Below, piece after piece: positions 1 through 20,410 of a stretch of 20,410 nucleotides of DNA. The position numbers and the translations under genes are program-made. Position 1 is the first letter of the stretch. Each line of letters begins with the position of its first letter. The DNA comes from a virus, in the IMG/VR virus record IMGVR_UViG_3300033894_000071, positions 1-20,410 of that record, one strand, 5' to 3'. The notes under the pieces were generated by a model. The model did not search any database and had not been told where the DNA came from. It saw nothing but the letters and a program-made list of their open reading frames with translations.

Positions 1-573
1 TCAAGGCTTGTCCCACGTTTTTGTCAAATCTCTAATCTTCTTTCTCACAAGGTCCCTCAGTGCTTCTCCGTAGTAGTTCATTAACTCCCGCCCAAGCTCT
101 GAGGTGAGGAACTCCACGACCAGCCCTCGCCTTAGGACTTCTCCTATAATCATCTCTACCGTCCCTTCCGCAAAATTCTTTTTGCTCCACACCCACTTTT
201 GATGCGGTGGTGGTTTGGGAGGTTTGGGTGGTTTGTTTTCTGTTTCTTCTTCTTTTTCTGTTCTTTCTCTCGTGGTCTTGCCGTTGAATATATCTTCATA
301 CCTCAGTAGTGGCTGGGCTTCTGGCTTTTCTTCTATCCCACAATACCAGCCCTTCACTGCCTCTACCAGCCATTCTATGCTTGCAATCTCATATCCGCCT
401 TTCTCCCATATCCGCTTGGCATACTCAAAATCTTCTATGTAGGCGTATGTAAGCGTGTATCTGATGTTGAACTTCTCAAGCGCCTCTTGTGTTTCTCTTG
501 TCATATCAAGCAATAGATGGTCGGAAAGGATAACTACTTTCTCGTTTCCTTTCTCAAGGAAGTATATCCACAT
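1..573 (-). CDS. Hypothetical protein, last gene of the lysis block (190 aa)
   Basis: I do not recognise this protein. It starts with ATG directly after the TAA of the endolysin gene (no gap, GGAG about 10 nt upstream), so it is translationally linked to the lysis genes, and it ends in TGA at the window edge. Residues 1-95 look like a small folded domain with many aromatic residues. A charged stretch (about 97-112) and a proline-lysine linker (PPKPPKPPP, about 114-122) follow, then a helical C-terminal segment of about 65 residues. No signal peptide or membrane segment is visible. The two-domain, linker-joined design fits a morphogenesis or host-takeover accessory protein, but no function can be assigned from sequence. 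Reality as a gene is well supported by context and length. Confidence 0.75.
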   Translation of the reverse strand: MWIYFLEKGNEKVVILSDHLLLDMTRETQEALEKFNIRYTLTYAYIEDFEYAKRIWEKGGYEIASIEWLVEAVKGWYCGIEEKPEAQPLLRYEDIFNGKTTRERTEKEEETENKPPKPPKPPPHQKWVWSKKNFAEGTVEMIIGEVLRRGLVVEFLTSELGRELMNYYGEALRDLVRKKIRDLTKTWDKP

Positions 574-7235: not shown

Positions 7236-8328
7236 CCACCAAACCTCCGTAGCGAACATTTACATTTCGTGCGTGTGCTATTTGTTCAATGGTGAGTTCC
7301 TGCTTTGTGGGTAAGGCTAAATCTACCCTGTAAGCTCCTGCTTGCTTGACAAGTCTTATTAGTTCCTCTGGTAAGATGTCCCTTCCGATCTTGGATCTTG
7401 TCCAAGCGATAAAGTCGTTGACCGCCTTTTCAACGGCAGACTGGATAAAAGAAAGCTTTGAAGCATCTTTTTTGTTCGCATAGAAGGTTAGATCAATGTC
7501 GTAATAGACTATCTCGGGGGCTGAGACTAAAACTTGGTCGGTCAAGGGACGCACACGCTCTGAAGACAGATAATCCCTAACAAGGGAGAGCATGCTTGCA
7601 TCTGGGATGTTGCCACCTTTCATGGTAAAGATGACTTTCACCTGTCCGGGGGCGGGGCTATAGACTTCTACATCTTCTATGTCTTGATGGGCGGAGAGGG
7701 TGTGGTAGATGTAGGCTTGCCTTGAACCCGCATTGGTGAAGCGTTCAATGGATAGTCTTATCCTCTCACGGAAGCGTTCGTCGTCTTCTTCGTCTGCACC
7801 GTATAGGCTCATGGTGATGTTTGAGACAGAGGCAACATAAGGCAATGGGTCCATGAGGTCTTTTATCTGTCCGGGAGAAAAGCCGTTGCCTTTTATGCCT
7901 GCTTCGCTACACTCGGCTAAAACATCAACGAACAAGCTTCCAGCTGGGATCTTTGCTTCCTGCAAAGTTGCAAAGTAGAGGTCTCCTCCTGTGGATGCCC
8001 TCGTCCCGGCAGGGATGACCACATCAAAGTTCAATGATTCTGCTAAAGAAAAACGCAAGATGGTTTGGGCTTTCCGGGCGGGAAGTCTTTGAATGCTGTA
8101 AAACTGTGCGAGGGCGTCAAGATATTGTTCTTTTGCGAAGGCAAGCAAATTTTGCTTTGCGGTTTCGTTTATGGCTATGGCTAAAAGAGTGCTGGCGTAG
8201 GTCTGAAGATTGATTAGCAAGCGTTCAGGGTCTGCTGGGTAGAGTGGGCGCTGTGTGATGTTTTCATAGGCATCAATCAGTAAGTCTTCCCAATAAGTTG
8301 CGTCTGTCTCTACAAACTTTATATCCAT
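7228..8328 (-). CDS. Baseplate assembly protein J-like (P2 gpJ / Mu gp47), 366 aa
   Basis: Baseplate wedge protein of contractile tails. Diagnostic features are a helical N-terminal region (about 1-85), then SLAESLNFDVVIPAGTRAST and the beta-rich GNGFSPGQIKDLMDPLPYVASVSNIT segment. These are followed by GADEEDDERFRERIRLSIERF and AGSRQAYIYHTLSAHQDIEDVEVYSPAPGQVKVIF, a signature of the baseplate J family. Length 366 is within the usual 300-400. The ATG overlaps the gpW-like stop by 10 nt. Downstream it overlaps the gpI-like gene, so W, J and I are translationally coupled. No anomalies. Confidence 0.93.
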   Translation of the reverse strand: MDIKFVETDATYWEDLLIDAYENITQRPLYPADPERLLINLQTYASTLLAIAINETAKQNLLAFAKEQYLDALAQFYSIQRLPARKAQTILRFSLAESLNFDVVIPAGTRASTGGDLYFATLQEAKIPAGSLFVDVLAECSEAGIKGNGFSPGQIKDLMDPLPYVASVSNITMSLYGADEEDDERFRERIRLSIERFTNAGSRQAYIYHTLSAHQDIEDVEVYSPAPGQVKVIFTMKGGNIPDASMLSLVRDYLSSERVRPLTDQVLVSAPEIVYYDIDLTFYANKKDASKLSFIQSAVEKAVNDFIAWTRSKIGRDILPEELIRLVKQAGAYRVDLALPTKQELTIEQIAHARNVNVRYGGLVDD

Positions 8329-8624
8329 AGCGTCTGCCTCGTTTCTATGTCTTCAATGGCTAAGAGAAGTTCTATCTTTGTCCGTTCAAGGCGTCTATCA
8401 AGTCTGACTTCCTTGACCTTTACCCTTGGTTCCCATCTCTCTATTTCATCTACAATGTAGGCTTTGATCTTGCCAGCGGTCAAGGCAGTCAAGGGTTGAT
8501 CTATAAACTTATAGAGTTCTGAGCCAAAGTCGGGACGGTGCACATCGGAACCCTTAGGCGTGGTCAAAATCACACGGATATTTTGCAAGACGCTTTTTAC
8601 AGCGTCTTGTTCAATAACAGTCAT
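8319..8624 (-). CDS. Baseplate protein gpW/gp25-like (101 aa), first gene of the fibre-lysis block
   Basis: Small baseplate wedge protein of the GPW/gp25 family: VKSVLQNIRVILTTPKGSDVHRPDFGSELYKFIDQPL, a helical middle, then IERWEPRVKVKEVRL and a beta C-terminus. The first in-frame start is a TTG at 8675, but I choose ATG 8624 (MTVIEQDAV) because it gives the normal family length. No SD precedes this ATG; the upstream 33 nt are pyrimidine-rich and lead to the late box at 8658-8672. Absence of an SD on the first gene of a block, while most inner genes have one, is shared with three other operon heads here. It overlaps gpJ. Confidence 0.9.
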   Translation of the reverse strand: MTVIEQDAVKSVLQNIRVILTTPKGSDVHRPDFGSELYKFIDQPLTALTAGKIKAYIVDEIERWEPRVKVKEVRLDRRLERTKIELLLAIEDIETRQTLWI

Positions 8625-8657
8625 AGTAAAAAGGATGGCAGATAGGAAGGAAGATTT

Positions 8658-8672
8658 CAAGCAAAGATTGCA
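8658..8672 (-). promoter_or_regulatory. Late box A (TGCAATCTTTGCTTG)
   Basis: Exact 15-mer on the minus strand, 33 nt upstream of the SD-less ATG of the gpW-like gene and 13 nt after the stop of the preceding gene. It contains the dyad GCAA-TCT-TTGC. The identity with box B continues for seven more bases (AAATCTT). Interpreted as a promoter or activator site for the baseplate-fibre-lysis block; no conserved -10 element is visible. Confidence 0.62.
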
Positions 8673-8685
8673 CAAAGGGGATTAG

Positions 8686-9075
8686 TCAGCCAAAGATCGG
8701 CCAGACTTCGCAAACGTCTTCAAAATAGTTATGGACTTTGTCTGTCCACTCCGGGTCTGTTAGAACGTCTCCACCTGCGGCCGTAAACACAATCGCCCAA
8801 CGCAATTTTTTATCATCTATCCTCGTTAAAAACTCTTTAGCCTTAGCCCAGTCCCCGCGTTTGAGGTATAAGGTGAACAGATCACTCCAGATGTGATTGA
8901 GAATGGTTTGGGGATTTTCATATCGTTTGAGCCTTTGAAGATACTCCTCTTTAGTTTTAGGGTAAAAATATTCGTGCCCGAACCATTGCAGTCTTTCCTC
9001 TTCCGTTAGTCCGTGGTCGTAAATTGTCTCTATGTCCGCTGGGAGGGTTTTATTTTTTCCGCCTCCTCTTGGCAT
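8686..9075 (-). CDS. Hypothetical protein ending the head block (129 aa)
   Basis: Not recognised. ATG at 9075 has AAGGAGG about 10 nt upstream (and AAGGA closer) and overlaps the 3' end of the head-morphogenesis gene by 26 nt, so it is coupled to it. The sequence has a basic N-terminus (MPRGGGKNK), a helical, aromatic, mostly acidic body (LTEEERLQWFGHEYFYPKTKEEYLQRLKRYE, ILNHIWSDLFTLYLKRGDWAKAKEFL) and ends PIFG. The GDWAKAKEFL section resembles a TPR-like helix pair. It lies where Mu-like phages encode small head proteins, but no motif identifies a role. Confidence 0.72.
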   Translation of the reverse strand: MPRGGGKNKTLPADIETIYDHGLTEEERLQWFGHEYFYPKTKEEYLQRLKRYENPQTILNHIWSDLFTLYLKRGDWAKAKEFLTRIDDKKLRWAIVFTAAGGDVLTDPEWTDKVHNYFEDVCEVWPIFG

Positions 9076-11146
9076 ATTCCTTAACCTCCTTTTGGAATTC
9101 TTCGTTGCTCAGCCTCAAGTTAACCATATCCCATACTATAACACCACTTGGAATTTCTGGAAGGTTAGTCTTTGTGCTCAACCAATCCACGAACCTTCTG
9201 TAAATGTTCCGGCTGTCCTCAAACAAAATGCCCTTCAATTCCTCCACCGCCTCTTTCTCGTTAATCTTGAACGTTTGTAGGACATACCTAAACCTCCAAA
9301 CATAAGTTTGGTAGCCTAAAGAGTCTTTTATTAATTCTTTTTGATAGTTTGGCTTGGCTTTTGGTCTCAGCATCCTAAAGAACTCATCATAAGTATGCCG
9401 TGCTATAAATTCAGTTATTGTCTCTAACACATTATCTTCAGGGTCGCTGAATTGCCATTTGAAGAGGTCCTTGGTTCGTAGGTGGGTCAGTTCATGCCAC
9501 AGGACGAGGAGCATACTCTCATCCTCTTTAGTCAATTGGACTTTATTTCTGAAGCTTTGCAAGGCGGATATTAATGGGGCTTCGTATTTTTTATTAATAA
9601 AAATCGTCCCAGTCCTGTCGCTATAGCCGATACATGCCATTATATACCTCTTATTTTCCACAACCTTCACGTCTCTAACCCTATAGTATAGAAGGTCTGG
9701 ATGCTTTTCCGAAAAATCTTTCAGGAATTTCTCTACATCCTGAATGCTACGGAACTCGTATTTATCAATGAAGGCTTGAGGCTTGCGTGTTTGGGCTTGT
9801 CTGGCTCCCAAAAGTTTGACAGTTGCGGACGGAGAATCTTTGGAAAACCCAGACAGCCAGCTCTCTATATCTTCTTTTAGGCGTCCAGCAGTTTGGATAG
9901 CAAGGCTTTCGTCGTTAGAGATTACATAAACACCGTTTTTGACGAAAATGTAATTGGTTTCATACTTTTTGGTCTGAGGGTTGAGGACCCTCTGGATAAA
10001 GACATGCTCGGGCTTTTTTATCACTTCATAGCTTAGCTGTTCGTATTCCTTTAGAGATTGCACGTTTAAGTCTTTTGCATGCTTTTCAAACTCCGCTTTA
10101 AGTCTGCTGGCTTTTGCATCAAAGGTGCCATCGGGATTACGCCTCCAATCACTTCCAAGATGGGCTTTAATCCTTGCTGTTAATTCTTCAGGTCTTAAGG
10201 CTTTTAACTCGGTGGTCAGTTCCTGCAAAATTGCAGTTTCCTCCAGAGATCTGGGTGGGACAGCTGGTTCTACGACGACTGGGTAGGGTTCTTCAATTTC
10301 TTCAATAAAAGAGACGATCCTGCATCGGCAGTGTGGGTGGGCTGGTGGCATCTTTGAGGGCATTTGTGGGCTTGGCAGGCTTTTTAGCTTATCTAAAGGG
10401 AAGCTTGTCAGGAAAGGTTTTACTTCAGGTAAAGATGCAGGGTCGGACTCTATAAGCTCTAAGGTTCTGATTGCCTCTCCTGTGTCAAAAATTCTCCCGT
10501 CCATACTCCGGCAATAAGGACATGTTAGCCTATCTCCCACCGCATCCCAGCGGTATTTTGTGATCCTTGCCTTTGCTATAGCCCTTAGCCTTGCGGAATT
10601 TCGGAGATGATTAACTGAGGTATCTATGATCTGCCTTGCTTTGCCTTCCGTTCTTTGTTTGAGATGGCCTCCGAACTCGTTAAAAAACTGTTTGATGCCC
10701 TCTTGTCCTTTGCCGATAGGGTTTCCCTGTTCTAAGTAATACTTAGAAAGCCACTTGACCACATCTAAGCGAAGTTTTTGGTCTCCCTGAAAGAACTTGC
10801 CAAGATAGAAATCGGTTAAGGAGAGGGCATAGTTGATGGAGCGTTCATCTGCCATGTTGAAGTCTATCCGTATCGGCATCCCCGCGGTGGCTTCTTTTTG
10901 TGTTTTTTCGTAGATCCTTCTAAACTCAGAGTAAAGCATTTCTTTGTGTTCTGGTGATAGGCGGACCTTCTGTTCTAATTCTTGCATAATGAAGCGGGTA
11001 AAGTCGTTGAAGCTGATGAAGTAGGGGGCAAAGCGAAAGGCTTGGGCAAGGGCGGACTCTACTTTCTTTATAAAATCGGGAAGGATTCTTTTCAGTAGTT
11101 CATCTATGAACTCGTTTCCTTCCGCATCCCAGTCGTATTCCGCCAT
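9050..11146 (-). CDS. Mu gpF-like head morphogenesis protein fused to a zinc metallopeptidase domain (698 aa)
   Basis: Minor head protein following the portal, as in Mu (gp29 portal, gp30/F). The F-like module covers about residues 1-280. It ends with the typical KYRWDAVGDRLTCPYC (Cys209, Cys212) ... PPAHPHCRC (His270, His272, Cys273, Cys275) signature, which can bind a metal. After a proline-rich linker and a charged region, a C-terminal domain carries WHELTHLR with an HExxH motif (His551, Glu552, His555). A downstream ETITEF (Glu575/Glu579) could give the third, gluzincin-type ligand. Mu F itself is much shorter, so this is a fusion. It could process head proteins or act on host targets after injection; neither is shown. 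Start ATG with GAGGAG, just after the portal stop. A 12-mer copy sits at 10224-10235. Confidence 0.85.
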   Translation of the reverse strand: MAEYDWDAEGNEFIDELLKRILPDFIKKVESALAQAFRFAPYFISFNDFTRFIMQELEQKVRLSPEHKEMLYSEFRRIYEKTQKEATAGMPIRIDFNMADERSINYALSLTDFYLGKFFQGDQKLRLDVVKWLSKYYLEQGNPIGKGQEGIKQFFNEFGGHLKQRTEGKARQIIDTSVNHLRNSARLRAIAKARITKYRWDAVGDRLTCPYCRSMDGRIFDTGEAIRTLELIESDPASLPEVKPFLTSFPLDKLKSLPSPQMPSKMPPAHPHCRCRIVSFIEEIEEPYPVVVEPAVPPRSLEETAILQELTTELKALRPEELTARIKAHLGSDWRRNPDGTFDAKASRLKAEFEKHAKDLNVQSLKEYEQLSYEVIKKPEHVFIQRVLNPQTKKYETNYIFVKNGVYVISNDESLAIQTAGRLKEDIESWLSGFSKDSPSATVKLLGARQAQTRKPQAFIDKYEFRSIQDVEKFLKDFSEKHPDLLYYRVRDVKVVENKRYIMACIGYSDRTGTIFINKKYEAPLISALQSFRNKVQLTKEDESMLLVLWHELTHLRTKDLFKWQFSDPEDNVLETITEFIARHTYDEFFRMLRPKAKPNYQKELIKDSLGYQTYVWRFRYVLQTFKINEKEAVEELKGILFEDSRNIYRRFVDWLSTKTNLPEIPSGVIVWDMVNLRLSNEEFQKEVKEYAKRRRKK
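10224..10235 (+). repeat. Dispersed 12-mer, copy 3
   Basis: Exact TGCAAAATTGCA on the plus strand, so opposite to the coding direction of the head gene, which reads TAILQ there. Flanks complete CTGCAAAATTGCAG. Confidence 0.85.
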
Positions 11147-11148
11147 GC

Positions 11149-12387
11149 TTACTCCTCGGGACCGTAGCCAAGCTCTTTTTTGGCGGTTTCAACATCAATA
11201 ATGCCAGCTTGGAGGAGTTGGATTATTCTTTGAGTTTCTTTAAGTCTTGCCTCGGCTTTCTTTTGAGGTTCAAAGTCCGGAAGCGGGTTGAAGATGATGT
11301 TCACATCATCTATGTCAAAGCCTTTAAGCATCAGGTGCAGACGGTAGACAAACTCTAAGAAGCGTCTGACAAGTCTTTGGATGCTTTCAAGCTGTGCACT
11401 AAAGACATGTAAAGCAACAGTTGCCCAGGTTTCAGTGTAGCCATCTGAAAAGCCTAAAACTGCTGGCTGGCTTTTTGCTCCCTCGATCAACCATTTCTCC
11501 GCAAGGTCTATGATTTCTCTTATGCCTCCCGCATTGGGTGATATTTCTTTGAATTCCGCCTCAGTGCCGTCAAAGTGTAGGAATATGCCTTTAGTCATGT
11601 TCTCGCTTACCTGCTGTGCGATGTTCTCAAGCCATCTGAGTGCCCTCTCTTGGTATTCCGTTTCTGTTTCATTGGGGGCTTTGGCAAGCGGTGGGAATTT
11701 AACATCCAGAAAGCCGATCAGACCGATTTTCTGTGCCAACCCTTTTAACTCCGTGATCATGCTTTCCACCACTTCTACGATAGAGAGGGAGGCAAGGAAT
11801 GGAGGGATTGCGTAGGGCGAATCTTCAAGGGTAAGTAAGGGCAAGTATTTATAGGTCATTGGATTGAGTTTTATAGGTTCTGCGTTGCCAACCCATTGAT
11901 AAGGTTCGTATTCGTCCGTCTCTTCGTTGTAGGTGAAATACACAGTAGCGGACGGGACAAACACGACCTTTTTTACACCCTGCAATTTTTCATCCACAAC
12001 CACTTCAGCTGATATGGCTCCGGCGATGTTTATCTGTGCGATTAGCTGATTGATTAAGTGGTCTGTGTTGAGAAGGAATGCAAGCTCTTTGAGTTCCTCC
12101 CTTGCCTTCTCTGCGTCTCTACCCTCAACCTGAACAGTGTGCCCTGTGTTTGCTAAGTTGATCGTGAGGTTATGCACTTGGGAAAGGATAGGATTTGCAA
12201 CAACTGCTTTGGCTATGGTGTTTAGCCATTCTCTTGGATACTTGGGATTAACGAACTTATACCGCACGTCTAAGGTCTTTGGAGTTAAAACCTTCTCGGA
12301 CTGGATTGAGAATCTGGTTTTAGGAAGGTCGGCTAAGTTTATCTTCTCGGAACCAAACAGGCGTTTAAAATAGCGCACTAAGTCCAT
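11149..12387 (-). CDS. Portal protein (412 aa)
   Basis: Forms the dodecameric ring at the capsid vertex through which DNA is packaged. It lies directly between the large terminase and the Mu-F-like head gene and has portal-like content: an N-terminal KFVNPKYPREWLNTIAKAVVANP segment, a central beta wing (VVFVPSATVYFTYNEETDEYEPYQWVG), helices around KGIFLHFDGTEAEFKEISPN and AVLGFSDGYTETWATVALHVFSAQLESIQRLVRRFLE. A C-terminal charged helix with RIIQLLQAGIIDVETAKKELGYGPEE is typical of portals. This pattern fits DUF935/SPP1-gp6-type portals, as in Mu-like phages. The ATG overlaps the terminase end by 23 nt. A one-mismatch copy of the 12-mer is at 11981-11992. Confidence 0.87.
   Translation of the reverse strand: MDLVRYFKRLFGSEKINLADLPKTRFSIQSEKVLTPKTLDVRYKFVNPKYPREWLNTIAKAVVANPILSQVHNLTINLANTGHTVQVEGRDAEKAREELKELAFLLNTDHLINQLIAQINIAGAISAEVVVDEKLQGVKKVVFVPSATVYFTYNEETDEYEPYQWVGNAEPIKLNPMTYKYLPLLTLEDSPYAIPPFLASLSIVEVVESMITELKGLAQKIGLIGFLDVKFPPLAKAPNETETEYQERALRWLENIAQQVSENMTKGIFLHFDGTEAEFKEISPNAGGIREIIDLAEKWLIEGAKSQPAVLGFSDGYTETWATVALHVFSAQLESIQRLVRRFLEFVYRLHLMLKGFDIDDVNIIFNPLPDFEPQKKAEARLKETQRIIQLLQAGIIDVETAKKELGYGPEE
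11981..11992 (-). repeat. Near-copy of the dispersed 12-mer (one mismatch)
   Basis: TGAAAAATTGCA on the minus strand in the portal gene (DEKLQ), identical to the variant at 1460-1471. Confidence 0.55.
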
Positions 12388-13675
12388 AGTTCATCTCCCT
12401 CTTTTGGTTTGCAAAAAGCACAGGTAAAAACTCTTTAGTTTCCTCTTGGCTTGAAGCGTGCAAAGCTAATGCCAAACTCCAAAAGCGGTCTGCGTGGCTG
12501 TCTTGGGTTTCTCCCTCGTAGCGGATATTCCCGGCTGGAGTTAAGGTTCTTTTCACAGAGTGCAAATCTTCAATCAGGTCTTTGTCGGGCGGTATGCTGA
12601 TAATTTTGTCTTCAAAGACTGCTTTTACCCTGCTTGCAAGCTCTTCTTTTGCCTTAGCTGTAAAGTAAACCCGCAGGACTTTAAGCTCTCCCCACTTCTT
12701 AGCCAACTCCTCCGCCAGTTGCATGCCTATTCCTGTTTCGTCTACTGCAACTTTGCGGGCGTATGCGGTTAGGTGGTCTATGACTTTGAACTGCTCGGAG
12801 AAAGGAAGCTTCTTTAGGATTTCCTGCTTGCGTAGATAATGCCTGCCTGCCACCTTCTCCAAGATGCTTATCACCGTTAGGTCATGCCTTCTTCCAATGT
12901 CAACGCCAAGATAGACATCTCCAGTCAATTCTCTTATATCTGCCTCTATACCCTCCACAGTGCAAGAATGCAGGACTTCATAGGGCAACAAGACACTCTC
13001 TTCGTCCATAAACTCGCACATATACTCTTGAAGCCATATATCCTGATTGGGCACGCCCTTTCTCAGTTCCTCCACATCCACATAAAGCCCAAGACTGACT
13101 GCGTCATAGATTGTTAGCTTTTGCCTGAACCAGAGATCATTTCCCTCCGACATCTGCCAGAGGTGTCCAAAAATATCGTTTTTTGCCCTCGGAGTTGAGA
13201 TAACGACAAGCTTAAAGTCCCTGTTTCTGGTTATGCTTGGGAATATAGCTTGATAGACTTTATAGCCATCCTTGAAAAATGCCGCCTCTTCTAAAATCAC
13301 ATCACCAGTTAGACCTCTTACGCCATCAGGGTTTGCGGGAAGTCCAATAATCCGAGAACGGTTTGGGAACTTCACTTCAAGCACATTAGTTTGCGTATCC
13401 TCGAAAAACTCCACATCACCAGTTAGCTTGCCTACCTGCCTAAGAAACTCCACATGCCTTTTGACCTTTTCCATCAATTCTTTGGACTGTCTTTCGGTGG
13501 GCGAGATAATGGCTACCAGATGGTTTTTTCTCTCAATAGCCCGCAAGACTGCAAAAAGGGACACTACAAAGGACTTCCCCGTTTGCCTTGACCACATAAG
13601 GATGGAATACTTTTTCTCAAGCATTTTCTGCAGGGCATGGCGCTGATATGGAAGGAGGAGTTTTTCAAACTCCAT
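12365..13675 (-). CDS. Terminase large subunit (436 aa)
   Basis: ATP-driven DNA-packaging motor with nuclease. The ATPase domain has Walker A SRQTGKS (29-35) and Walker B DVILEE (125-130, catalytic Glu about 129/130). The coupling motif is VVISTPR (157-163). The RNase-H-like nuclease domain has three expected acidic positions: VDIGRRHD (Asp259), VDETG (Asp312) and SHADRFWS (Asp396). Length and layout match Mu gp28-like/terminase 6 proteins. The ATG at 13675 has TAAAGGAGGAGATAT and overlaps the small terminase by 11 nt. All key residues are present, so it should be active. Confidence 0.95.
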   Translation of the reverse strand: MEFEKLLLPYQRHALQKMLEKKYSILMWSRQTGKSFVVSLFAVLRAIERKNHLVAIISPTERQSKELMEKVKRHVEFLRQVGKLTGDVEFFEDTQTNVLEVKFPNRSRIIGLPANPDGVRGLTGDVILEEAAFFKDGYKVYQAIFPSITRNRDFKLVVISTPRAKNDIFGHLWQMSEGNDLWFRQKLTIYDAVSLGLYVDVEELRKGVPNQDIWLQEYMCEFMDEESVLLPYEVLHSCTVEGIEADIRELTGDVYLGVDIGRRHDLTVISILEKVAGRHYLRKQEILKKLPFSEQFKVIDHLTAYARKVAVDETGIGMQLAEELAKKWGELKVLRVYFTAKAKEELASRVKAVFEDKIISIPPDKDLIEDLHSVKRTLTPAGNIRYEGETQDSHADRFWSLALALHASSQEETKEFLPVLFANQKREMNYGLSALF

Positions 13676-14162
13676 ATATCTCCTCCTTTACAAGCTTCAA
13701 AAACTCTGGGTCTATGTTTCTCTTCTTGCCCTCCTCTTCTATCTTTTCCACCACCTTCTGCAATTTTGCAGAGACGTATTCCTCTAAACTCTTTGTCATC
13801 TGCGTTAGTTCCTTGACTGCTTTGATAAGTTCTCCGGGCTCATCAAACTCCATAAAGTCTATGTCTTTTACGAACTCAAGCACATGCTGGGTCAGGATAG
13901 AAACAAGGGCTGAAAGCATAAAGCTTGTTGGTTTGTTTTGTGTTTGTTCAACAAGGATTTTTATCTTGTCCCACCACTCATTGTATTGTTTAGCAAGTTC
14001 TTTGTAGTCTTTGTAGGCACGGTGGATGCTTGAGCGTGAGATGTCGTAGCCCTCCGAACGCAGTAGGCTTGCTATTGCCCGGAAGTCTTTCTTCTCTTCC
14101 TCGTAAAGATATACAATACGCTGTATGAGGTCGTAAAGTTCTGCCTTCTTGCGTCTTGCCAT
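13665..14162 (-). CDS. Small terminase-type protein, DUF3486/Mu gp27-like (165 aa)
   Basis: Expected to recognise phage DNA for packaging. The N-terminal 60 residues (MARRKKAELYDLIQRIVYLY, then FRAIASLLRSEGYDISRSSIHRAYKDYKELAKQY) form a helix-turn-helix like that of Mu gp27/DUF3486. A helical middle (residues 60-135) and an acidic C-terminus follow. The position directly before the large terminase agrees. The SD GAGG is about 8 nt before the ATG. The 12-mer at 13759-13770 lies in the codons for SAKLQ near residues 131-135. Confidence 0.85.
   Translation of the reverse strand: MARRKKAELYDLIQRIVYLYEEEKKDFRAIASLLRSEGYDISRSSIHRAYKDYKELAKQYNEWWDKIKILVEQTQNKPTSFMLSALVSILTQHVLEFVKDIDFMEFDEPGELIKAVKELTQMTKSLEEYVSAKLQKVVEKIEEEGKKRNIDPEFLKLVKEEIYGV
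13759..13770 (-). repeat. Dispersed 12-mer, copy 4
   Basis: Exact copy on the minus strand inside the small terminase gene, reading SAKLQ. Flanks complete CTGCAAAATTGCAG. Confidence 0.85.
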
Positions 14163-14165
14163 CGT

Positions 14166-14450
14166 TCAATCCTCGGGAGGAAGGACAGTGTCATCTATGA
14201 TCTCGCCGTCAAGTAGGTCAATCCCTTTTGGCGTGATCTTGTAAAGCGTCCTGTAGCGTCTTTTGTCATATGGAATAGCTACCTTCTTGACTTCCACATA
14301 GCCCTTATCAACGAGGTATGCGAGGGCTTGTCTGATTTCCGTGTCTCTGTGGTATTGATAGAAAACCGCAATGACTTCAAGTTCTTCAATCTCCCGAGGG
14401 TAGATCCTTTTCAGGAAGTCTAAAATCAAGCCTCTCAAGCTTTTACTCAT
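14166..14450 (-). CDS. Winged-helix DNA-binding protein (94 aa)
   Basis: Probable DNA-binding protein with winged-helix fold. LRGLILDFLKRIYPREIEELEVIAVFYQ is followed by IRQALAYLVDKGYVEVKKVAIPYDKRRYRTLYKITPKGIDLLDGE, the recognition helix plus wing ending in the common KITPKGIDLL pattern. I choose ATG 14450 (MSKSLRG), with GGAGG 7 nt upstream, over an in-frame TTG at 14465. It overlaps the previous stop as ATGA. Mu-like phages have a small gene at this place before the terminase (gp26 position). It may help packaging-site recognition or regulate late genes; the sequence does not decide. Confidence 0.78.
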   Translation of the reverse strand: MSKSLRGLILDFLKRIYPREIEELEVIAVFYQYHRDTEIRQALAYLVDKGYVEVKKVAIPYDKRRYRTLYKITPKGIDLLDGEIIDDTVLPPED

Positions 14451-14809
14451 CTTTGAACCTCCCAAAGTTTGTCCAAGACCTTTGAAAGCTTGTCCTCAAG
14501 CTTCTGTATCTCTGCCCTCCAACCACTCACATCCTGGTAGTATTCCTCTTTTGAGACGCCGTATTTCTGCAGTTCTTCAAGCTTAGAGATGAGCCTGTTT
14601 AGTTCGTGCCTCCAACCGCTTACATCTCGGTAATACTCTTCCTTGCTTACCATCTCCTTATGGTAGCCTTCCAGCTTTTCCTCAAGCCTTTTCATTTCGT
14701 TCCCAAAACTCTCAAGCTTCTTCTCAAACTTGAGAAGCAAATACAACAAAAAAGCAATGCTTGCAACCCAGCCACCTTGAAAAATCAGCGAAAGAATTCC
14801 TACTTCCAT
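14447..14809 (-). CDS. Membrane-anchored coiled-coil protein with internal duplication (120 aa)
   Basis: First gene of the packaging-head block. An N-terminal transmembrane helix (about residues 5-27, LSLIFQGGWVASIAFLLYLLL) is followed by a long coiled coil. Within it a unit of about 27 residues starting VSKEEYYRDVSGW occurs twice (about residues 54-80 and 84-110, second copy VSKEEYYQDVSGW). It resembles the DUF2730-type proteins located before the small terminase in Mu-like phages. Neither ATG (14809, MEVGIL; or 14821, MFKQM) has an SD. I prefer 14809 because it puts late box B 34 nt upstream, like the 32-35 nt seen at the other boxes. Function unknown. Confidence 0.78.
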   Translation of the reverse strand: MEVGILSLIFQGGWVASIAFLLYLLLKFEKKLESFGNEMKRLEEKLEGYHKEMVSKEEYYRDVSGWRHELNRLISKLEELQKYGVSKEEYYQDVSGWRAEIQKLEDKLSKVLDKLWEVQR

Positions 14810-14843
14810 TTGTTTAAACATTGCATCAAGCGTAAGAAGATTT

Positions 14844-14858
14844 CAAGCAAAGATTGCA
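14844..14858 (-). promoter_or_regulatory. Late box B (TGCAATCTTTGCTTG)
   Basis: Second exact copy on the minus strand, one base beyond the stop codon of the gpV-like gene and 34 nt upstream of ATG 14809. Together with box A it is identical over 22 bp (14837-14858 and 8651-8672). It lies before the packaging-head block. Possible -10-like TGCAAT lies 11-16 nt before the ATG, but it is not conserved at the other boxes. Confidence 0.62.
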
Positions 14859-14859
14859 A

Positions 14860-15294
14860 TCAGTGGCTGTGGTGAGGTGTATTTCCACCCTCGTCTATTA
14901 TGGAACCCGTGGCGTGGATATTTCCGATAACATTTACATTGCCCTCAATAATAACTGTTTGTGCTTTGACCCGGAGGATATGGGTTTTCCTATCATACTC
15001 AATCTCTGTCCCGTCCTCAAATCTCACAAAGAACTTATCCTTGCTGGCAACCGGTGGCGTATCCTTGTTGTTGTAAATGGCTCCTAACACATAGCCGTCC
15101 GAATGTTCTCCTTCCTCATCAAAGGCAACCACTACATATTCTCCTATGTCAGGAAGCCAGTAAGTCTTATCTTTTTGGGTCTTGTGATGCACAATTGGAA
15201 GCCAATTGGAGACTAAGCCGTCAAGGTCTGGCATCTGCACTCTTACCCTTGCTGTTTTTTCATCAACTGCTACAACTATGCCTCGCCTGATCAT
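14860..15294 (-). CDS. Baseplate spike protein, P2 gpV / Mu gp45-like (144 aa)
   Basis: Membrane-piercing tail spike. The N-terminal OB-fold-like domain (GIVVAVDEKTARVRVQMPDLDGLVSNWLPIV, then YWLPDIGEYVVVAFD and DGYVLGAIYNNKDTPP) is followed by a beta-helix (EIEYDRKTHILRVKAQ, VIIEGNVNVIGNIHATGSIIDEGG). It ends in TPHHSH. The terminal HxH matches the iron-binding apex motif known from P2 gpV and phi92/Mu spikes. The ATG overlaps the gpD stop as ATGA, with AAAGGAGGAAGAA as SD. It is shorter than P2 gpV (211 aa) and close to the compact members. A confident family call. Confidence 0.92.
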   Translation of the reverse strand: MIRRGIVVAVDEKTARVRVQMPDLDGLVSNWLPIVHHKTQKDKTYWLPDIGEYVVVAFDEEGEHSDGYVLGAIYNNKDTPPVASKDKFFVRFEDGTEIEYDRKTHILRVKAQTVIIEGNVNVIGNIHATGSIIDEGGNTPHHSH

Positions 15295-16319
15295 TTCTTT
15301 CTTCCTCCTTTACCTTTGCTTTCTCCGGGCTTTTTCAAAAATTCTATTCGTGTAGTGTAGCCGTCCCTTCTCATCTCGTGCTCCACTTGGGCAACATAAT
15401 AAACACCGTCAAATCTGTCAAAACCTTTGAGTTCAATAGTTCCGCTTGCGTAGATGGAAGGGATGCCAACGCAGGTAAGTCTTCCTTTGAGTTCCTTCAT
15501 CTCGTTTAGTGTTTTTTGGGCGTTGCTTATTCTCTCAGCTTGTGCTTTGTTCTCTACTCTAACTCTCTCAACCTGCTTGTCTTGGCTTGCTTTCACATTA
15601 GCCTTCTTTTTGTCTGCGGTTGGTTCCTTCTTTTGTGGGTCAAGATAGACCACATCCACAGTCCCAGCGTTCAGACTTGATACCTCTATTTCAAGGTCTA
15701 TCACCCACTCGGGCGTTAGCACGAACATAACATTCCGATTGAGGATGCTTTCTACTCCTTGAATGACGATTTTTCCGTCTGCAATCTTGCAGGTGTATCC
15801 GTAGCGTTTGCAAAGCTGGTATAGAAACTCTAAGTCCCTTTGCTTGTATTGGTCTATCCTCTGAAAATTTATGTCTGAACCTTCAAAGTAAAGCTTGTAG
15901 CCATTCCTTTTGGCTATGTCCTCTGCAATCTTCTTTAAGCTTGTGTTTTCAAAGGCGGAGGTCTTAAGCGTTCTAAAGCTTGCCTTGACATCTTTAGCTA
16001 AAGCTTTAATGGTAAAGGTTGCACCGCTTTGGGAGTATCTAAATGTGTAGCTGTCTATGAAAAATACTCCCGCATCTCGCACTGCTTCTTCGTAGCCAAA
16101 GCGGACTTTCAAACTTGACCCTCTGGCTGGAGGGTTTTTCCTGAAAAAACCGATGCTATCCTCAACCTCAATCTCCACATCGTCGCTTTCATCCTTGTCC
16201 AAGCCGTCGTTGTCTATGTAGCGAAAGCTAAGAAGGTGGGGCGTGATGTATGCTGAAACATCCCTGTTGTTTATCTCAATATAAAGGAATGGTTTGTAAA
16301 GCCTTATTCCGTCTGCCAT
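15291..16319 (-). CDS. Tail hub protein, P2 gpD-like (342 aa)
   Basis: Baseplate hub (late control D family; equivalent of Mu gp44 and T4 gp27). Recognisable parts are the N-terminal LYKPFLYIEINNRDVSAYITPHLLSFRYIDN with DEVEIEVED-type acidic strand (SDDVEIEVEDSIGFF), RGSSLKVRFGYEE, GVFFIDSYTFRYSQSGATFTIKA and KKIAEDIAKRNGYKL. QYKQRDLEFLYQLCKRYGYTCKIADGKIVI is the family hallmark. The C-terminal region holds a charged insertion (KKANVKASQDKQVERVRVENKAQAERISNAQ). The SD is weak and distant (AGAGGT about 13 nt away), so translation probably depends on coupling from gpX, which it overlaps by 16 nt. Confidence 0.92.
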   Translation of the reverse strand: MADGIRLYKPFLYIEINNRDVSAYITPHLLSFRYIDNDGLDKDESDDVEIEVEDSIGFFRKNPPARGSSLKVRFGYEEAVRDAGVFFIDSYTFRYSQSGATFTIKALAKDVKASFRTLKTSAFENTSLKKIAEDIAKRNGYKLYFEGSDINFQRIDQYKQRDLEFLYQLCKRYGYTCKIADGKIVIQGVESILNRNVMFVLTPEWVIDLEIEVSSLNAGTVDVVYLDPQKKEPTADKKKANVKASQDKQVERVRVENKAQAERISNAQKTLNEMKELKGRLTCVGIPSIYASGTIELKGFDRFDGVYYVAQVEHEMRRDGYTTRIEFLKKPGESKGKGGRKK

Positions 16320-16519
16320 GGCGCTTTTATGACCTCTGGCTCGTTTTCAACCTCTATGATCGGAATCTGCAATTTTGCACCGGGTGGTGGGTAGGGCAAA
16401 CCTATATACTGAGGGTTAGCACGGAGGATGGGCTCATACATGTAAGGGTCTCCGTAAAACTGCCAAGCTATTGTATCCCAGCGGTCTCCCTGCTTAGCTA
16501 TGTAAAAGAGATATTCCAT
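16304..16519 (-). CDS. Tail protein X, LysM-type (71 aa)
   Basis: Small P2 gpX-like protein with one LysM-like fold: YIAKQGDRWDTIAWQFYGDPYMYEPILRANP, then PPPGAKLQIP. The pattern GDRWDTIAWQFYGD...I..ANP is characteristic. It probably links tube or hub components during tail assembly. I choose ATG 16519, which has GAGGTG with 6 nt spacing; an upstream in-frame GTG (16528) is possible. It begins five bases after the gpU stop and overlaps gpD. A 12-mer copy at 16368-16379 encodes the GAKLQ motif. Confidence 0.9.
   Translation of the reverse strand: MEYLFYIAKQGDRWDTIAWQFYGDPYMYEPILRANPQYIGLPYPPPGAKLQIPIIEVENEPEVIKAPWQTE
16368..16379 (-). repeat. Dispersed 12-mer, copy 5
   Basis: Exact copy on the minus strand inside the gpX-like gene, reading GAKLQ. 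Confidence 0.85.
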
Positions 16520-16524
16520 AGTGC

Positions 16525-17010
16525 TCACCTCGTGATGATGGGTTTATATTGCGAGGGTTGCACTTGCTGTTGGGAGTTTTTGCTTTTCTTGGCTGGTGCT
16601 TTTTTCTTCGTTGTTCTTATTTCTCTTGTCTGAAGTTTCTTTTCTCGGTATTCCGTAAGTCTCATAGTGCAATAGATTGCGACGGGTTTGCCCCAAACAT
16701 CCACCTGCTTGACCTCTGCGGTGATGCTTTCTATTACGAAATCTCCGTAGACCTGCTCGGCAATTATCAGTTTTTTGGGTAAGCCTTCTTTAGCAACGTC
16801 TTTTAGTTTTTGATATTCCTCAAGCGGATTGCAAAAATCACGATGAAAGCCCACCTTGATTTCAAGGCTCAGGAGTTCCTCGCCGAGAAACTGCAAACTG
16901 GAAGGTGCAAAGATGGTTCTGTGCTTGGCTACGGCGTATTCGTTTGTTTCTCTGTGCTCAAGGTATGAGTAGACTTTGAAGACGATGTCTCCGAGGGAGG
17001 CGTATTGCAT
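16525..17010 (-). CDS. Tail terminator / gpU-like tail protein (161 aa)
   Basis: P2 gpU family. The pattern KHRTIFAPSSLQFLGEELLSLEIKVGFHRDFCNPLEEYQKLKDVAKEG, then YGDFVIESITAEVKQVDVWGKPVAIYCTMRLTEY, matches gpU domains that cap or terminate the tail tube. The C-terminal 30 residues are basic and glutamine-rich (KKKAPAKKSKNSQQQVQ), probably unstructured. ATG 17010 has no SD; late box C lies 32 nt upstream. It heads the U-X-D-V tail block. Confidence 0.88.
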   Translation of the reverse strand: MQYASLGDIVFKVYSYLEHRETNEYAVAKHRTIFAPSSLQFLGEELLSLEIKVGFHRDFCNPLEEYQKLKDVAKEGLPKKLIIAEQVYGDFVIESITAEVKQVDVWGKPVAIYCTMRLTEYREKKLQTREIRTTKKKAPAKKSKNSQQQVQPSQYKPIITR

Positions 17011-17042
17011 ATATCAATATTTGATGCATAAAAGCACTCAAT

Positions 17043-17057
17043 CAAGCAAAGATTGCA
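17043..17057 (-). promoter_or_regulatory. Late box C (TGCAATCTTTGCTTG)
   Basis: Third exact copy on the minus strand, seven bases beyond the stop of the DUF2513 gene and 32 nt upstream of the SD-less ATG of the gpU-like gene. The interval is AT-rich (TCAAATATTGATAT directly before the ATG) and could contain a -10 element. Interpreted as the start signal of the U-X-D-V block. Confidence 0.62.
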
Positions 17058-17064
17058 AAGAGTT

Positions 17065-17427
17065 CTATTGGATCAGGCTTAGGACGATGTTTTTGGCAAG
17101 CTCTTTTGCAAGGTCAAAGGTAAGGCTCAACCCGAGCTCCCTTGCCCTCTCTTTGACCTTATTCCAAACGGATGGGTTGCGAATGCTATTTAGAAACTCG
17201 TGCCCCTGCCAAGTCAAACTGATGGCATAGTAGATAGGAGGAGAGCTCAGAGATTTAATGCGGTCTGCCTCAATCAATTCTGCTTGGGAGAGGAGCTTAA
17301 TATGGTAGGAGACTTTTTCCCAGTCATGAAAAGGCTGAAATGCATGTGGCATTAACCGTCCCTCTTGCTCCGGGAGTTCTTCAAGCTTAAGAAGGATTTC
17401 CCGCACAAGTTCCCAGTCAAGCTTCAT
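17065..17427 (-). CDS. DUF2513 family protein, winged-helix-like (120 aa)
   Basis: Clear DUF2513 pattern: MKLDWELVREILLKLEE, WEKVSYHIKLLSQAELIEA, YYAISLTWQGHEFLNSIRNPSVWNKVKE. Members are common in phages and prophages. Their fold suggests a winged helix, but a biochemical role is not established. Here it stands alone between two late boxes, with its own box (D) 35 nt before its SD-less ATG. Because it sits between the repressor and the first late block, it is one candidate for the activator that reads the boxes, but this is only positional inference. Confidence 0.85.
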   Translation of the reverse strand: MKLDWELVREILLKLEELPEQEGRLMPHAFQPFHDWEKVSYHIKLLSQAELIEADRIKSLSSPPIYYAISLTWQGHEFLNSIRNPSVWNKVKERARELGLSLTFDLAKELAKNIVLSLIQ

Positions 17428-17462
17428 ACAAGAAAAAAGCTAAGCTACTTTTCACAAAAAGA

Positions 17463-17477
17463 CAAGCAAAGATTGCA
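17463..17477 (-). promoter_or_regulatory. Late box D (TGCAATCTTTGCTTG)
   Basis: Fourth exact copy on the minus strand, five bases beyond the repressor stop and 35 nt upstream of the SD-less ATG of the DUF2513 gene. TAGCTT occurs twice in tandem between box and ATG (one at 10-15 nt before the ATG), a weak -10 candidate. Confidence 0.6.
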
Positions 17478-17482
17478 AAAAC

Positions 17483-18160
17483 TTAGAGTTCTACTCTTTT
17501 TATAGCTTCTACTGCTACACCCACAATCCGCAACTCTTCCGTTTTAATCTGTTCTGGTGAGATGGGTGGGTATTTTGGATTATCTGAAGTTAGCACAATC
17601 AAGCCGTTTATCCTCGTAAGCCTCTTAACTATTAACTCTCCGTAATGATTTCGCACTACTACCACCTTTCCACTCGGAATATCCGACCCATCACCAACAT
17701 AGGTTTTAAACACCACGAAATCGCCATCGTGCAGTGTGGGCTCCATACTATCGCCATGCACTTGCACTGAAAACTTTCCGCCCCTCTGAAATGTTTCCTT
17801 ACTAACAAGAACATAGCCCACCACATCCAAGTCGGCTGGGCTTTCTGGGAACCCTGCCCCCGCACGCCCTACAACTGGAATACGAACAAGCTTTTCAAGA
17901 ACCTCTCTTGTTTTTGCCTCTAACTCTTCTAATAATGCTTTCTCTCTTTTCTCCCACATCTCCCCCTGTCCTGTTTTTAGCCATTCATAGGAGACGCCGA
18001 AGGTGGAGGAGATGAGTTTGAGGACTTTATCGGGTGGGTCATACACTCCCCTTTCATACAGCCCAAGCATTTTATAGGTGATGCCTATTTTAGAGGCAAA
18101 CTCTGTTTGCGTTAGCCCTAAGGTTTGCCTGAGCTGTTTAATCCTCCTGCCAACATTCAT
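17483..18160 (-). CDS. S24-type phage repressor (CI/LexA-like), 225 aa
   Basis: Immunity repressor. Residues 1-66 form an HTH_3/XRE domain (RRIKQLRQTLGLTQTEFASKIGITYKMLGLYERGVYDPP). A helical linker follows, then a C-terminal S24 autoprotease domain with cleavage site Ala100-Gly101 (VVGRAGAGF), nucleophile Ser138 (HGDSMEPTL) and general base Lys179 (ELIVKRL). All residues needed for RecA-stimulated self-cleavage are present, so induction by DNA damage is expected. I choose ATG 18160 because it begins exactly at the HTH domain; an open frame up to 18391 would run through the operator and the early gene. The stop lies in a small AGAGT-TCT-ACTCT hairpin. It is divergent from the early operon. 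Confidence 0.93.
   Translation of the reverse strand: MNVGRRIKQLRQTLGLTQTEFASKIGITYKMLGLYERGVYDPPDKVLKLISSTFGVSYEWLKTGQGEMWEKREKALLEELEAKTREVLEKLVRIPVVGRAGAGFPESPADLDVVGYVLVSKETFQRGGKFSVQVHGDSMEPTLHDGDFVVFKTYVGDGSDIPSGKVVVVRNHYGELIVKRLTRINGLIVLTSDNPKYPPISPEQIKTEELRIVGVAVEAIKRVEL
17485..17500. terminator. Weak bidirectional terminator-like hairpin
   Basis: AGAGT-TCT-ACTCT (5-bp stem, 3-nt loop) overlapping the repressor stop. A T run follows on the plus strand, and TAAGTTTTT follows on the minus strand. The stem is short and AT-rich, so it would be weak in a thermophile; listed as a possibility only. Confidence 0.3.
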
Positions 18161-18204
18161 GGGACATTTTTCCCTTTCCCTCTTGACAAGTGGGAAATTT
18201 TTCC
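18161..18204. promoter_or_regulatory. Putative repressor operators O1 and O2
   Basis: Two related sites in the same orientation, 31 bp apart (about three helical turns): GGGACATTTTTCCC at 18161-18174, touching the repressor ATG, and GGGAAATTTTTCC at 18192-18204, which fills the spacer of the early promoter. Both have dyad symmetry (GGGA/TCCC; GGAAA-TT-TTTCC). The position is ideal for a dimeric CI-like repressor to block the early promoter and its own gene. Inference from symmetry and position; a third site is not clear. Confidence 0.5.
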
Positions 18205-18210
18205 TATAAT
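18183..18210 (+). promoter_or_regulatory. Early rightward promoter (TTGACA-16-TATAAT)
   Basis: Both hexamers match the sigma-70 consensus exactly: TTGACA at 18183-18188 and TATAAT at 18205-18210, spacer 16 bp. The expected transcription start is 18217 (plus or minus one), practically at the ATG (18218) of the first early gene, so the mRNA should be leaderless. Operator-like O2 covers the spacer. Confidence 0.85.
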
Positions 18211-18217
18211 ATTCCCT

Positions 18218-18511
18218 ATGGGTAATAACCTTACCATAAGAGAAATTGTAAAGGAGAAGAGCAGGGAGAGGGGAATAAGCTTGGCAAAGCTTGCTTTTGA
18301 ACTTGGAGTCAATCAAGTTTATCTCCTCAATGTTCTTCATGGGCGGAAGTCCTCCCGCCCTCTCATCTGCAAAATTGCAGAGACCCTTCATATCCCTGAC
18401 CTCCCAGCAAAGTATGAGATTTATTTAGCGGAGAAGCGTGTAGAAAGCAAGGGTAAAACCTCTCCAAACAAAGCTTGCAAGAAGAAATCCCATAAAGGAG
18501 GTGTATCATGA
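18218..18511 (+). CDS. Small HTH protein, Cro/Ner-position regulator (97 aa)
   Basis: First gene of the early operon, divergent from the repressor: the place of Cro in lambda or Ner in Mu. The sequence shows an HTH at about residues 20-42 (ISLAKLAFELGVNQVYLLNVLHG) after LTIREIVKEKSRERG, and a basic C-terminal tail. I start at ATG 18218 because the promoter -10 ends only 8 nt before it; an upstream extension would lie across the promoter. There is no SD, in line with a leaderless mRNA. The last codons overlap the SD of the next gene and the stop overlaps its ATG (ATGA). A 12-mer copy at 18368-18379 is inside the gene. Probably represses the repressor or its own promoter. Confidence 0.82.
   Translation: MGNNLTIREIVKEKSRERGISLAKLAFELGVNQVYLLNVLHGRKSSRPLICKIAETLHIPDLPAKYEIYLAEKRVESKGKTSPNKACKKKSHKGGVS
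18368..18379 (+). repeat. Dispersed 12-mer, copy 6
   Basis: Exact copy on the plus strand inside the small HTH gene, frame TGC-AAA-ATT-GCA (CKIA), a different frame from the others. Flanks complete CTGCAAAATTGCAG. Confidence 0.85.
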
Positions 18512-18969
18512 AGCACTCAAGCTTCAACTGGGTGTTTAGGGAGTTCATCTCCCGCAAAAGCCCCTACGCACTGGCTTCCCGTTTAGGGAAGTCCGAGAAG
18601 CTGATTTATGCGTGGGCTCAGGATGAGAGTAGTCCCTTCCACCGGAAGGACCCGCTGTCCTACGCCCTTAACACACTCAGGGTGATTAATGACCACATCC
18701 CTGAGCTGGCATTCAAGGCACTCCAAGAAATAGCCCATGAGTTAGGGTATCGGTTGGAGCCGTATCCTTCGGAGAGGGAAGTTCCCTTTAAAGAAATCCT
18801 CAAAGAACTCAACGACGCCGAAGAAGCTTTAGTGGATCAGGATAACAGCTTGGAGGAAGACCTCAAGGAAGTGGAGGAGGCTATTTACAGCCTATTGATG
18901 AAAAGGGCGGAGTTAAAGAAAAAGCTTATAGAAAAAGCCGAGAGGGAGAAAGCCCCTCGGAGGAGGTGA
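18508..18969 (+). CDS. Early regulator with HTH and C-terminal coiled coil, CII-like (153 aa)
   Basis: Probable DNA-binding regulator. The N-terminal part has an HTH-like segment (about residues 17-40, SPYALASRLGKSEKLIYAWAQD). A helical region (LSYALNTLRVINDHIPELAFKALQEIAHELGY, about 50-82) and a charged coiled-coil C-terminus (about 95-150) follow. The arrangement and position after a Cro/Ner-like gene recall phage regulatory CII-type (CP76) proteins, but the match is by general pattern. Translation is well signalled: CATAAAGGAGGTGTATC before the ATG, which overlaps the previous stop as ATGA. Confidence 0.75.
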   Translation: MKHSSFNWVFREFISRKSPYALASRLGKSEKLIYAWAQDESSPFHRKDPLSYALNTLRVINDHIPELAFKALQEIAHELGYRLEPYPSEREVPFKEILKELNDAEEALVDQDNSLEEDLKEVEEAIYSLLMKRAELKKKLIEKAEREKAPRRR

Positions 18970-19197: not shown

Positions 19198-19361
19198 GGC
19201 TACCAGAGAGGGATTCAGACTGGCAGTTGATTATTAGTTCATTGATGCTTGCCTGCTCCATCTTCCTCGTTGTCCTTGCCGAAGCAAAGAACAGGCAGGT
19301 TTTAGAGATGCTAAAGGAAGTAAGGAAAATAGAACAAAACATAAAGGAGGTGTGCAAATGA
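19194..19361 (+). CDS. Small single-span membrane protein (55 aa)
   Basis: Short gene that overlaps its two neighbours by ATGA at both ends, which strongly supports translation. AGGAGGTGGAG precedes the ATG. The product has a charged N-terminus (MRLPERDSDW), one hydrophobic segment of about 18 residues (11-28, QLIISSLMLACSIFLVVL) and a charged helical C-terminus (EAKNRQVLEMLKEVRKIEQNIKEVCK). The topology fits a membrane-anchored helix of unknown role, perhaps an early exclusion or inhibitor protein; that is inference. Confidence 0.72.
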   Translation: MRLPERDSDWQLIISSLMLACSIFLVVLAEAKNRQVLEMLKEVRKIEQNIKEVCK

Positions 19362-19790: not shown

Positions 19791-19831
19791 ATCAAAGCAA
19801 AAAACCAAATCTCATAAAGGAGGTGTAAGGC

Positions 19832-20410
19832 ATGATAGTAGAACTTGAACTCAAAGACTTAGTAGTGCCGCAAGGTCTATTGCCCCGTGTCCTAACTGGC
19901 ACGGTGGAAGAGAAAGTGGAAGAGTATAAGGAAATGCTGGAGCAAGGGGTGGAATTTGACCCCATAACCGTCTGGAAACGCCCAGACGGACAATACTGGA
20001 TAGTGGATGGCGTGCACAGAACAGAAGCACACAAAAGGGCAGGAAGAACCACAATAAAGGTAAAGATCGTAGAACTGAAGGATGAGCTGGAATATCGGAT
20101 TGAGGCAATCAAGGCGAACCTGAAGCACGGATTACCATTACAGAAAGAAGAGAAAATCCTTTTAGCACAGACCTTATACAAGCTTGGCGTTCAGACTGCA
20201 GAACTTAAAAAGCTGTTTGGGGTGGCGGAGAGGACGCTGTATTACTGGCTGGAGCCAGTGAAAGAAAAGGAAAAGGAGGAGCTGAAGAAAAAGGCTTTGG
20301 AAATGAAGAGGCAAGGCTTATCCACAAGAGAAATAGCAGAAAGGCTTGGAGTAGATCAGTCCACAATAGTGAGGTGGTGCGGTGAAGAAAGTGATGCAAA
20401 ATTGCAATAA
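19832..20410 (+). CDS. ParB-like protein with two helix-turn-helix motifs (192 aa)
   Basis: Residues 1-95 are a ParB/Srx-type domain: ITVWKRPDGQYWIVDGVHRTEAHKRAGRTTIKVKIVE contains the DG-HR motif (Asp59, Gly60, His62, Arg63) of ParB nuclease/CTPase-type proteins. IEAIKANLKHGLPLQKEEK continues the family pattern. HTH-like segments follow at about 119-140 (VQTAELKKLFGVAERTLYYWL) and 163-184 (LSTREIAERLGVDQSTIVRWCG, resolvase/MerR-like look). Such proteins occur in early regions of transposable (Mu/B3-like) and other phages. The SD is CATAAAGGAGGTGTAAGGC. The gene ends with a 12-mer copy (20395-20406) just before its TAA. It may bind DNA sites; which ones is unknown. The family call is good, the role uncertain. 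Confidence 0.88.
   Translation: MIVELELKDLVVPQGLLPRVLTGTVEEKVEEYKEMLEQGVEFDPITVWKRPDGQYWIVDGVHRTEAHKRAGRTTIKVKIVELKDELEYRIEAIKANLKHGLPLQKEEKILLAQTLYKLGVQTAELKKLFGVAERTLYYWLEPVKEKEKEELKKKALEMKRQGLSTREIAERLGVDQSTIVRWCGEESDAKLQ
20395..20406 (+). repeat. Dispersed 12-mer, copy 7
   Basis: Exact copy on the plus strand at the very end of the ParB-like gene (DAKLQ-stop). Confidence 0.85.

Follow-up and report, generated by a model that had tools for sequence, protein, structure and literature searches.

A putative activator box at fixed distance from the -10 element of late promoters in Mu-like phages of Aquificota

The site of the P2 activator Ogr lies near -55, lambda CII recognizes TTGC-N6-TTGC, and the T4 activator MotA, whose box is centred near -30, replaces the -35 contact. 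The C protein of phage Mu turns on four late promoters, the elements of which deviate from consensus, using the host RNA polymerase (PMC4461284). BldC binds in head-to-tail fashion to direct repeats of 9 bp (PMC5859096). Here, a 15-bp box, TGCAATCTTTGCTTG, is described that heads the late gene blocks in a fragment of a phage infecting hot-spring bacteria, the complete IMG/VR record IMGVR_UViG_3300033894_000071 (20,410 bases, referred to as the window). Sequence comparison indicates that a phage-encoded activator very probably binds the box, at late promoters served by host sigmaA, most of which would yield leaderless transcripts.

An exact-match scan of the whole window places TGCAATCTTTGCTTG on the minus strand at 8658-8672, 14844-14858, 17043-17057 and 17463-17477 and nowhere else in the 20,410 nt, in agreement with the initial annotation. 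Its statement that the repeat is not due to chance is borne out by 100 dinucleotide shuffles (expectation 0). A relaxed scan (≤3 mismatches) adds five weaker matches, the best of which (18465-18479, 2 mismatches) is without any other promoter feature. Each box follows the stop codon of the preceding gene by 1-13 nt and heads a late block on the minus strand, the contents of which, as first proposed, were recovered by family searches (gp25/W, J, I and fibre; terminase, portal and head morphogenesis; U, D and V; DUF2513). Box 1 (8658..8672) heads the W-J-I-fibre-lysis block, beginning with the baseplate wedge gene gp25/W (8319..8624; PF04965, phrog_43), and is kept before W in the relatives L005-L015, L248 and L253. 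Box 2 (14844..14858) heads the packaging-head block, in which a first gene at 14447..14809 is followed downstream by the small and large terminase subunits and the portal. Box 3 (17043..17057) heads the U-X-D-V tail block, starting with a P2 GpU-like tail protein gene (16525..17010; PF06995), and box 4 (17463..17477), just past the stop codon of the repressor gene, heads the DUF2513 gene (17065..17427; PF10711, phrog_585). Boxes 2 to 4 are likewise backed by relatives. The distances from box to ATG are 33, 34, 32 and 35 nt, as annotated; the second is counted to ATG 14809, a start chosen from L016 and L029, which have no ATG at the position of the upstream one. No Shine-Dalgarno-like sequence is present in the 22 nt 5' of the four late-block ATGs.

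The initial annotation saw no -10 element common to the four copies, which turned out to be wrong. A hexamer of the form nAnnnT lies 21-26 nt past each box, i.e., after a 20-nt gap, namely CATCCT (8632..8637), CAATGT (14818..14823), AAATAT (17017..17022) and TAGCTT (17437..17442), all on the minus strand. This element is weak in the window phage and clear over its relatives. It is found at exactly this position in 82% of 38 non-redundant sites, compared with at most 37% in 2,000 shuffles; the sites come from related phages and cannot count as 38 independent observations, though the pattern recurs in separate lineages. The A and the T of nAnnnT are the only strongly conserved positions downstream of the box in these sites. 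Box, fixed gap and -10 element are established by sequence comparison. The transcription start predicted about 7 nt past the -10 hexamer coincides with the ATG in the window (ATG 8624 for the first promoter). This predicted start puts the TTG at the box end around -36 to -34 and the whole box around -48 to -34, which would be a class II activator position with the box end overlapping the place of the -35 element. Leaderless initiation fits the host phylum, since predicted leaderless genes, associated with a TATAAT-like signal, average 26.5% in those Aquificae genomes where they were detected (PMC3160421).

Dozens of related contigs carry the box ahead of the same late genes as the window does, and the spacing between the box and a sigma70-type -10 is constant. 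The proposal of a late-promoter class coordinating separated operons is thus upheld, and the class is well supported. Two of the four copies in the window share 8 more flanking bases, which could hint at a chance repeat, a recent duplication, a recombination site or an RNA-level element. Such origins are hardly credible, as the box is conserved at the same places in phages whose terminases are just 59-62% identical, within unrelated flanks, with lineage-specific letters and with a -10 element downstream of it.

Versions of the box in other lineages were sought by geometry only, i.e., as 15-mers recurring at least three times with nAnnnT at +21..26 and a start codon nearby. This search regained the known box together with new ones, and the reversed-sequence controls gave none in almost all cases. 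Weak families were not counted; these were low-complexity families in Sericytochromatia flanks and in the controls there (L277, L279). In lineages further removed, the letters of the box are different and the geometry is retained (TCCAACCTGTCCTAA; CGCCACAGTNAACAG; wwwAAATATTGCTTG). The phage of genome G014, which is of the E type and has a terminase 59% identical, carries nine TCCAAC[C/A]TGTCCTAA boxes, all located 20 nt before TATCTT, TAACCT, TATGGT or TATTGT. E-type start codons are either an ATG at 32 nt or a start with Shine-Dalgarno sequence at 53-58 nt from the box, and five further E-type boxes are found in L281. In a Sericytochromatia prophage, wwwAAATATTGCTTG boxes show the same geometry with the ATG at 32 nt. 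The G146 prophage box, CGCCACAGTNAACAG, has the same 20-nt gap, the box of the G050 prophage is TGAAATCTCTGCTTG, and a tentative box, GCAAAAYRGGAAG, is represented by two exact sites and one near site in the G042 prophage.

Two further observations concern the distribution of these versions. The G003 phage looks mosaic, with the TGCAATC box at its tail and packaging blocks and a different candidate box at its head block. The latter lies beside a divergent HTH_17 gene and resembles GCAAAAYRGGAAG of G042 (L247:6240-6420 for G003; L307:4919 and L306:14047 for G042); the G003 phage may need two activators. At the end of an Aquificota contig (L272; G117:C227:21304), a single TGAAATCTTTGCTTG is accompanied by TATACT exactly at +21..26 and a start with Shine-Dalgarno sequence; it may belong to a phage fragment or be a late promoter that was captured.

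Of the three factors suggested in the initial annotation, an activator, an alternative sigma factor or a phage RNA polymerase, the activator fits best because the search for sigma region 2 was negative, the -10 is ordinary and the letters of the box vary between lineages at a fixed position. A strong 15-bp element at fixed distance from the predicted start is also what an alternative or phage sigma factor or a phage RNA polymerase would recognize. Recognition of this kind is very improbable, as no sigma-70 region 2 homologue was found in eight phage records, some of them fragments (the searches did not extend to phage RNA polymerase families), and as an ordinary -10 is present that stays the same between lineages while the upstream element changes. 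A sigma-54 reading, with TTGC as the -12 element, was rejected since inspection revealed no conserved GG upstream. The GCAA-TCT-TTGC dyad that had been pointed out as a possible dimer site is not conserved in the relatives; binding of a symmetric dimer was dismissed because TGAAATCTGTGCTTG, TGAAACCTTTGCTGG and TCCAACCTGTCCTAA do not preserve the inverted repeat.

The boxes are specific to the phage. Per 15 positions, 0.78 mismatches are found between genes within a phage and 2.95 for the same gene between phages, a contrast that none of 10,000 permutations reached. Within-phage uniformity combined with between-phage difference, a coordinated divergence evident from the aligned sites, is what would be predicted for a single diverging protein that recognizes every box of its genome. 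A scan of host genomes and related prophages, as the initial annotation had advised, confined the exact box in lysogen genomes to the prophage save for stray single copies, with a reversed-pattern control near zero. In the G050 genome and in the G146 genome, the respective box occurs exactly four times, always within the prophage. E-type boxes number six in G093 and eight in G102, all in the prophage, and eight of the nine in G095 are in prophage clusters. Since the boxes are confined to the prophage, the factor is not a host-wide regulator. The degenerate pattern TGMAATCTKTGCTTG has 9 matches in 136 genomes: two CRISPR spacers, one D-type phage, a possible promoter (L263), an uncertain case (L259) and the rest apparently intragenic. 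A plain 15-mer scan of IMG/VR returned at least 119 stretches, mostly with single copies that are probably due to chance, and homology-based loci were therefore used instead.

The overlap of the box with the -35 position would also suit a repressor operator that silences the late genes in the lysogen. This reading is improbable, given that a box scan found no late box in the repressor and early control region and that the box is unlike the usual operator palindrome. The -35 and -10 elements are, moreover, weak, and the E-type -35 position reads TAAnnn, suggesting promoters that need help rather than silencing.

Relatives of the window phage were identified through the terminase. They are viral contigs and also include an Aquificaceae genome bin (77% identity), while none of the named phages in the collection exceeds 37% identity at the terminase. 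Longer relatives encode a MuA-like DDE transposase, which has a weak Pfam match and can be aligned between lineages, followed by a MuB-like ATPase (phrog_296). In L247 the two lie at L247:9257-10714 (DDE_3, weak and below cut-off) and L247:8577-9260 (phrog_296), a region beyond the window. Further early genes of these relatives code for a ParB-like protein, a treble-clef/Myb-like protein, a DnaC-like loader and a small HTH_17 protein. By its sequence relationships, the window phage is assigned to a Mu-like transposable phage group of Aquificota. No relatives of the Sericytochromatia MuA turned up in a dedicated scan. The host is taken to be Aquificota because of the prophages in genomes of this phylum and of CRISPR spacers overlapping the box in two of them. 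One of these spacers agrees with the G006 W promoter in 33 of 37 positions; good agreement of the second is limited to the box itself. The box-covering spacers sit in the arrays of L274 (G070:C29) and L273 (G117:C38), and one such spacer could match several sites of one phage. As of 2020, no virus of Aquificota had been isolated (PMC7689252), and a search of an incomplete literature collection yielded no paper on late promoters of Aquificae viruses.

For the box as an activator site, the following mechanism is proposed. A phage activator would occupy the box at about -48 to -34. Host RNA polymerase would find the -10 weak and the -35 poor or missing, and the bound protein would recruit or activate the polymerase. 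The separated late blocks would thereby be switched on together, late in infection. In the window phage, transcription would start at or beside the ATG and give leaderless mRNAs; in other members, a short leader with a Shine-Dalgarno sequence would result.

This arrangement is close to that of phage Mu, with which the Aquificota phages share a Mu-like genome and separated late promoters with poor -35 and -10 elements (Plys, PI, PP and Pmom in Mu), apparently under one late activator as Mu's are under C. Differences are the other box, the predicted leaderless starts and a candidate activator of the Xis/BldC fold whose gene is often headed by the box. No match to the Mor/C family (PF08765) over cut-off was obtained in the eight phage records, some of which are fragments. 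Late control in the Aquificota phages works like Mu C regulation and is not of the Mor/C family; the system is not a member of the Mu C class because the defining C/Mor protein was not found. With P2/P4 Ogr/Delta, the phages have in common several late operons, including P2-type tail genes, that share an activator site; however, no protein matches the Ogr_Delta zinc-finger activator over cut-off and the site overlaps the -35. Lambda CII is a class II activator with a direct-repeat-like site over the -35, whereas the period here is 9 bp rather than 10 bp and a CII-like (CP76) gene is present in some box phages only. A CII-like gene as the activator was rejected, as it was not found in G005, G012 or the box-bearing B, C and D records, some of them fragments. 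The letters of TTTGCTTGA resemble those of the MotA box, yet the box lies about 6-7 bp further upstream, with its centre at about -41 and thus off the MotA position (the MotA protein was not searched for), and the E lineage changes the letters entirely.

The activator is, on balance, most likely a small HTH_17 protein of the Xis/BldC fold. Proteins matching HTH_17 (PF12728) over cut-off are present in the TTGCTTG-box lineages with a complete early region and in G146; the profile was not iterated, as an iterated one drew in MuA and ParB helices and was discarded. The gene lies after the early operon or at its end. It is headed by the box in L253, L254, L245, L249, L278 and G146; in L252 and L026 the copy ahead of it is imperfect. 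Such an arrangement would allow positive feedback. In the Sericytochromatia prophage (L278:10094-10539), two HTH_17 genes stand in tandem, and the box heads the second. A structural model of the protein (mean predicted local distance difference test score, pLDDT, 79) is a winged helix that matches Pukovnik Xis and BldC (4j2n, 6amk, 6ama). The box can be read as 9-bp repeats, TGC-AATCTT-TGC-TTG in the A type and TCC-AACCTG-TCC-TAA in the E type, with both half-sites changed alike. This reading is suggestive of BldC-like binding, in which HTH_17 protomers may bind head to tail. BldC itself is a pleiotropic Streptomyces regulator with varied sites, whereas a role as late activator is proposed here for the candidate HTH_17.

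Several points weigh against this assignment. E-type phages are without a clear HTH_17 and have only a weak MerR/HTH_17-like gene (E 0.0006-0.002), with a box that differs; G003 and G042 combine a divergent HTH_17 with a different candidate box; and the HTH_17 gene of G050 has no box of its own. The treble-clef/Myb-like early protein, by comparison, is conserved in every box-bearing Aquificota lineage with a complete early operon, including the E type. This protein, or another early protein, could be the activator, with HTH_17 merely a late target, an alternative that is rather unlikely: the Sericytochromatia prophage carries TTGCTTG boxes and two HTH_17 genes, and the treble-clef/Myb-like protein was not found there; its gene is truncated in L026, where boxes are nevertheless present. 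That the HTH_17 proteins form a previously unrecognised class of phage late activators, with a protein-box pair evolved separately in each Mu-like lineage, 9-bp direct repeats, a class II position and mostly leaderless late mRNAs in thermophilic hosts, is put forward tentatively, with a probability slightly below even.

The remaining features of the window concern its early region and other repeats. An S24-peptidase/helix-turn-helix repressor is encoded on the minus strand (17483..18160; PF00717, PF01381; likely start about 18160). On the plus strand, a consensus early promoter, TTGACA-16-TATAAT, without late box (18183..18210; 12/12 match) is followed by genes for a CII-like (CP76-type) early regulator (18508..18969; assigned through its G014 homologue, which matches PF06892 with E 4e-4, below cut-off) and a ParB-like/helix-turn-helix early protein that reaches the record end (19832..20410; family matches). 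The remaining early operon (MuA, MuB, HTH_17) is outside the window fragment, and its gene order was taken from G003, G005 and G014. A strong ribosome-binding region, AAATCYCATAAAGGAGGTGTA, is repeated before early genes (18485-18505, 19334-19354 and 19807-19827), in contrast to the late genes of the same window, which lack a Shine-Dalgarno sequence. A second repeated element, the palindrome TCTGCAATTTTGCAGA or near copies of it, is scattered over the phage, often within genes (721-736, 6764-6779, 10223-10236, 13757-13772, 16366-16379 and 18366-18381 in the window). B-type phages carry TGCAATTTTTGCAGG(TTGCGACAT) repeatedly, close to contig ends and ahead of the repressor. Palindromes of the TCTGCAATTTTGCAGA type may serve as end sites for the transposase or as operators, or may represent a host-wide palindrome. 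Tandem 30-nt repeats at 2608-2907 encode MNAVANSSTA units; the gene concerned (2146-3045) likely codes for a tail fibre or adhesin, and the repeat tract is possibly variable in length.

The box supplies a late regulon for phages of Aquificota and allows transcript starts and operon borders to be predicted for phages that are otherwise uncultured. At least five site versions have diverged while the promoter geometry stayed fixed, a natural series in which the co-evolution of activator and site becomes directly testable. The system would add a Mor/C-independent form of late-gene control in Mu-like phages.

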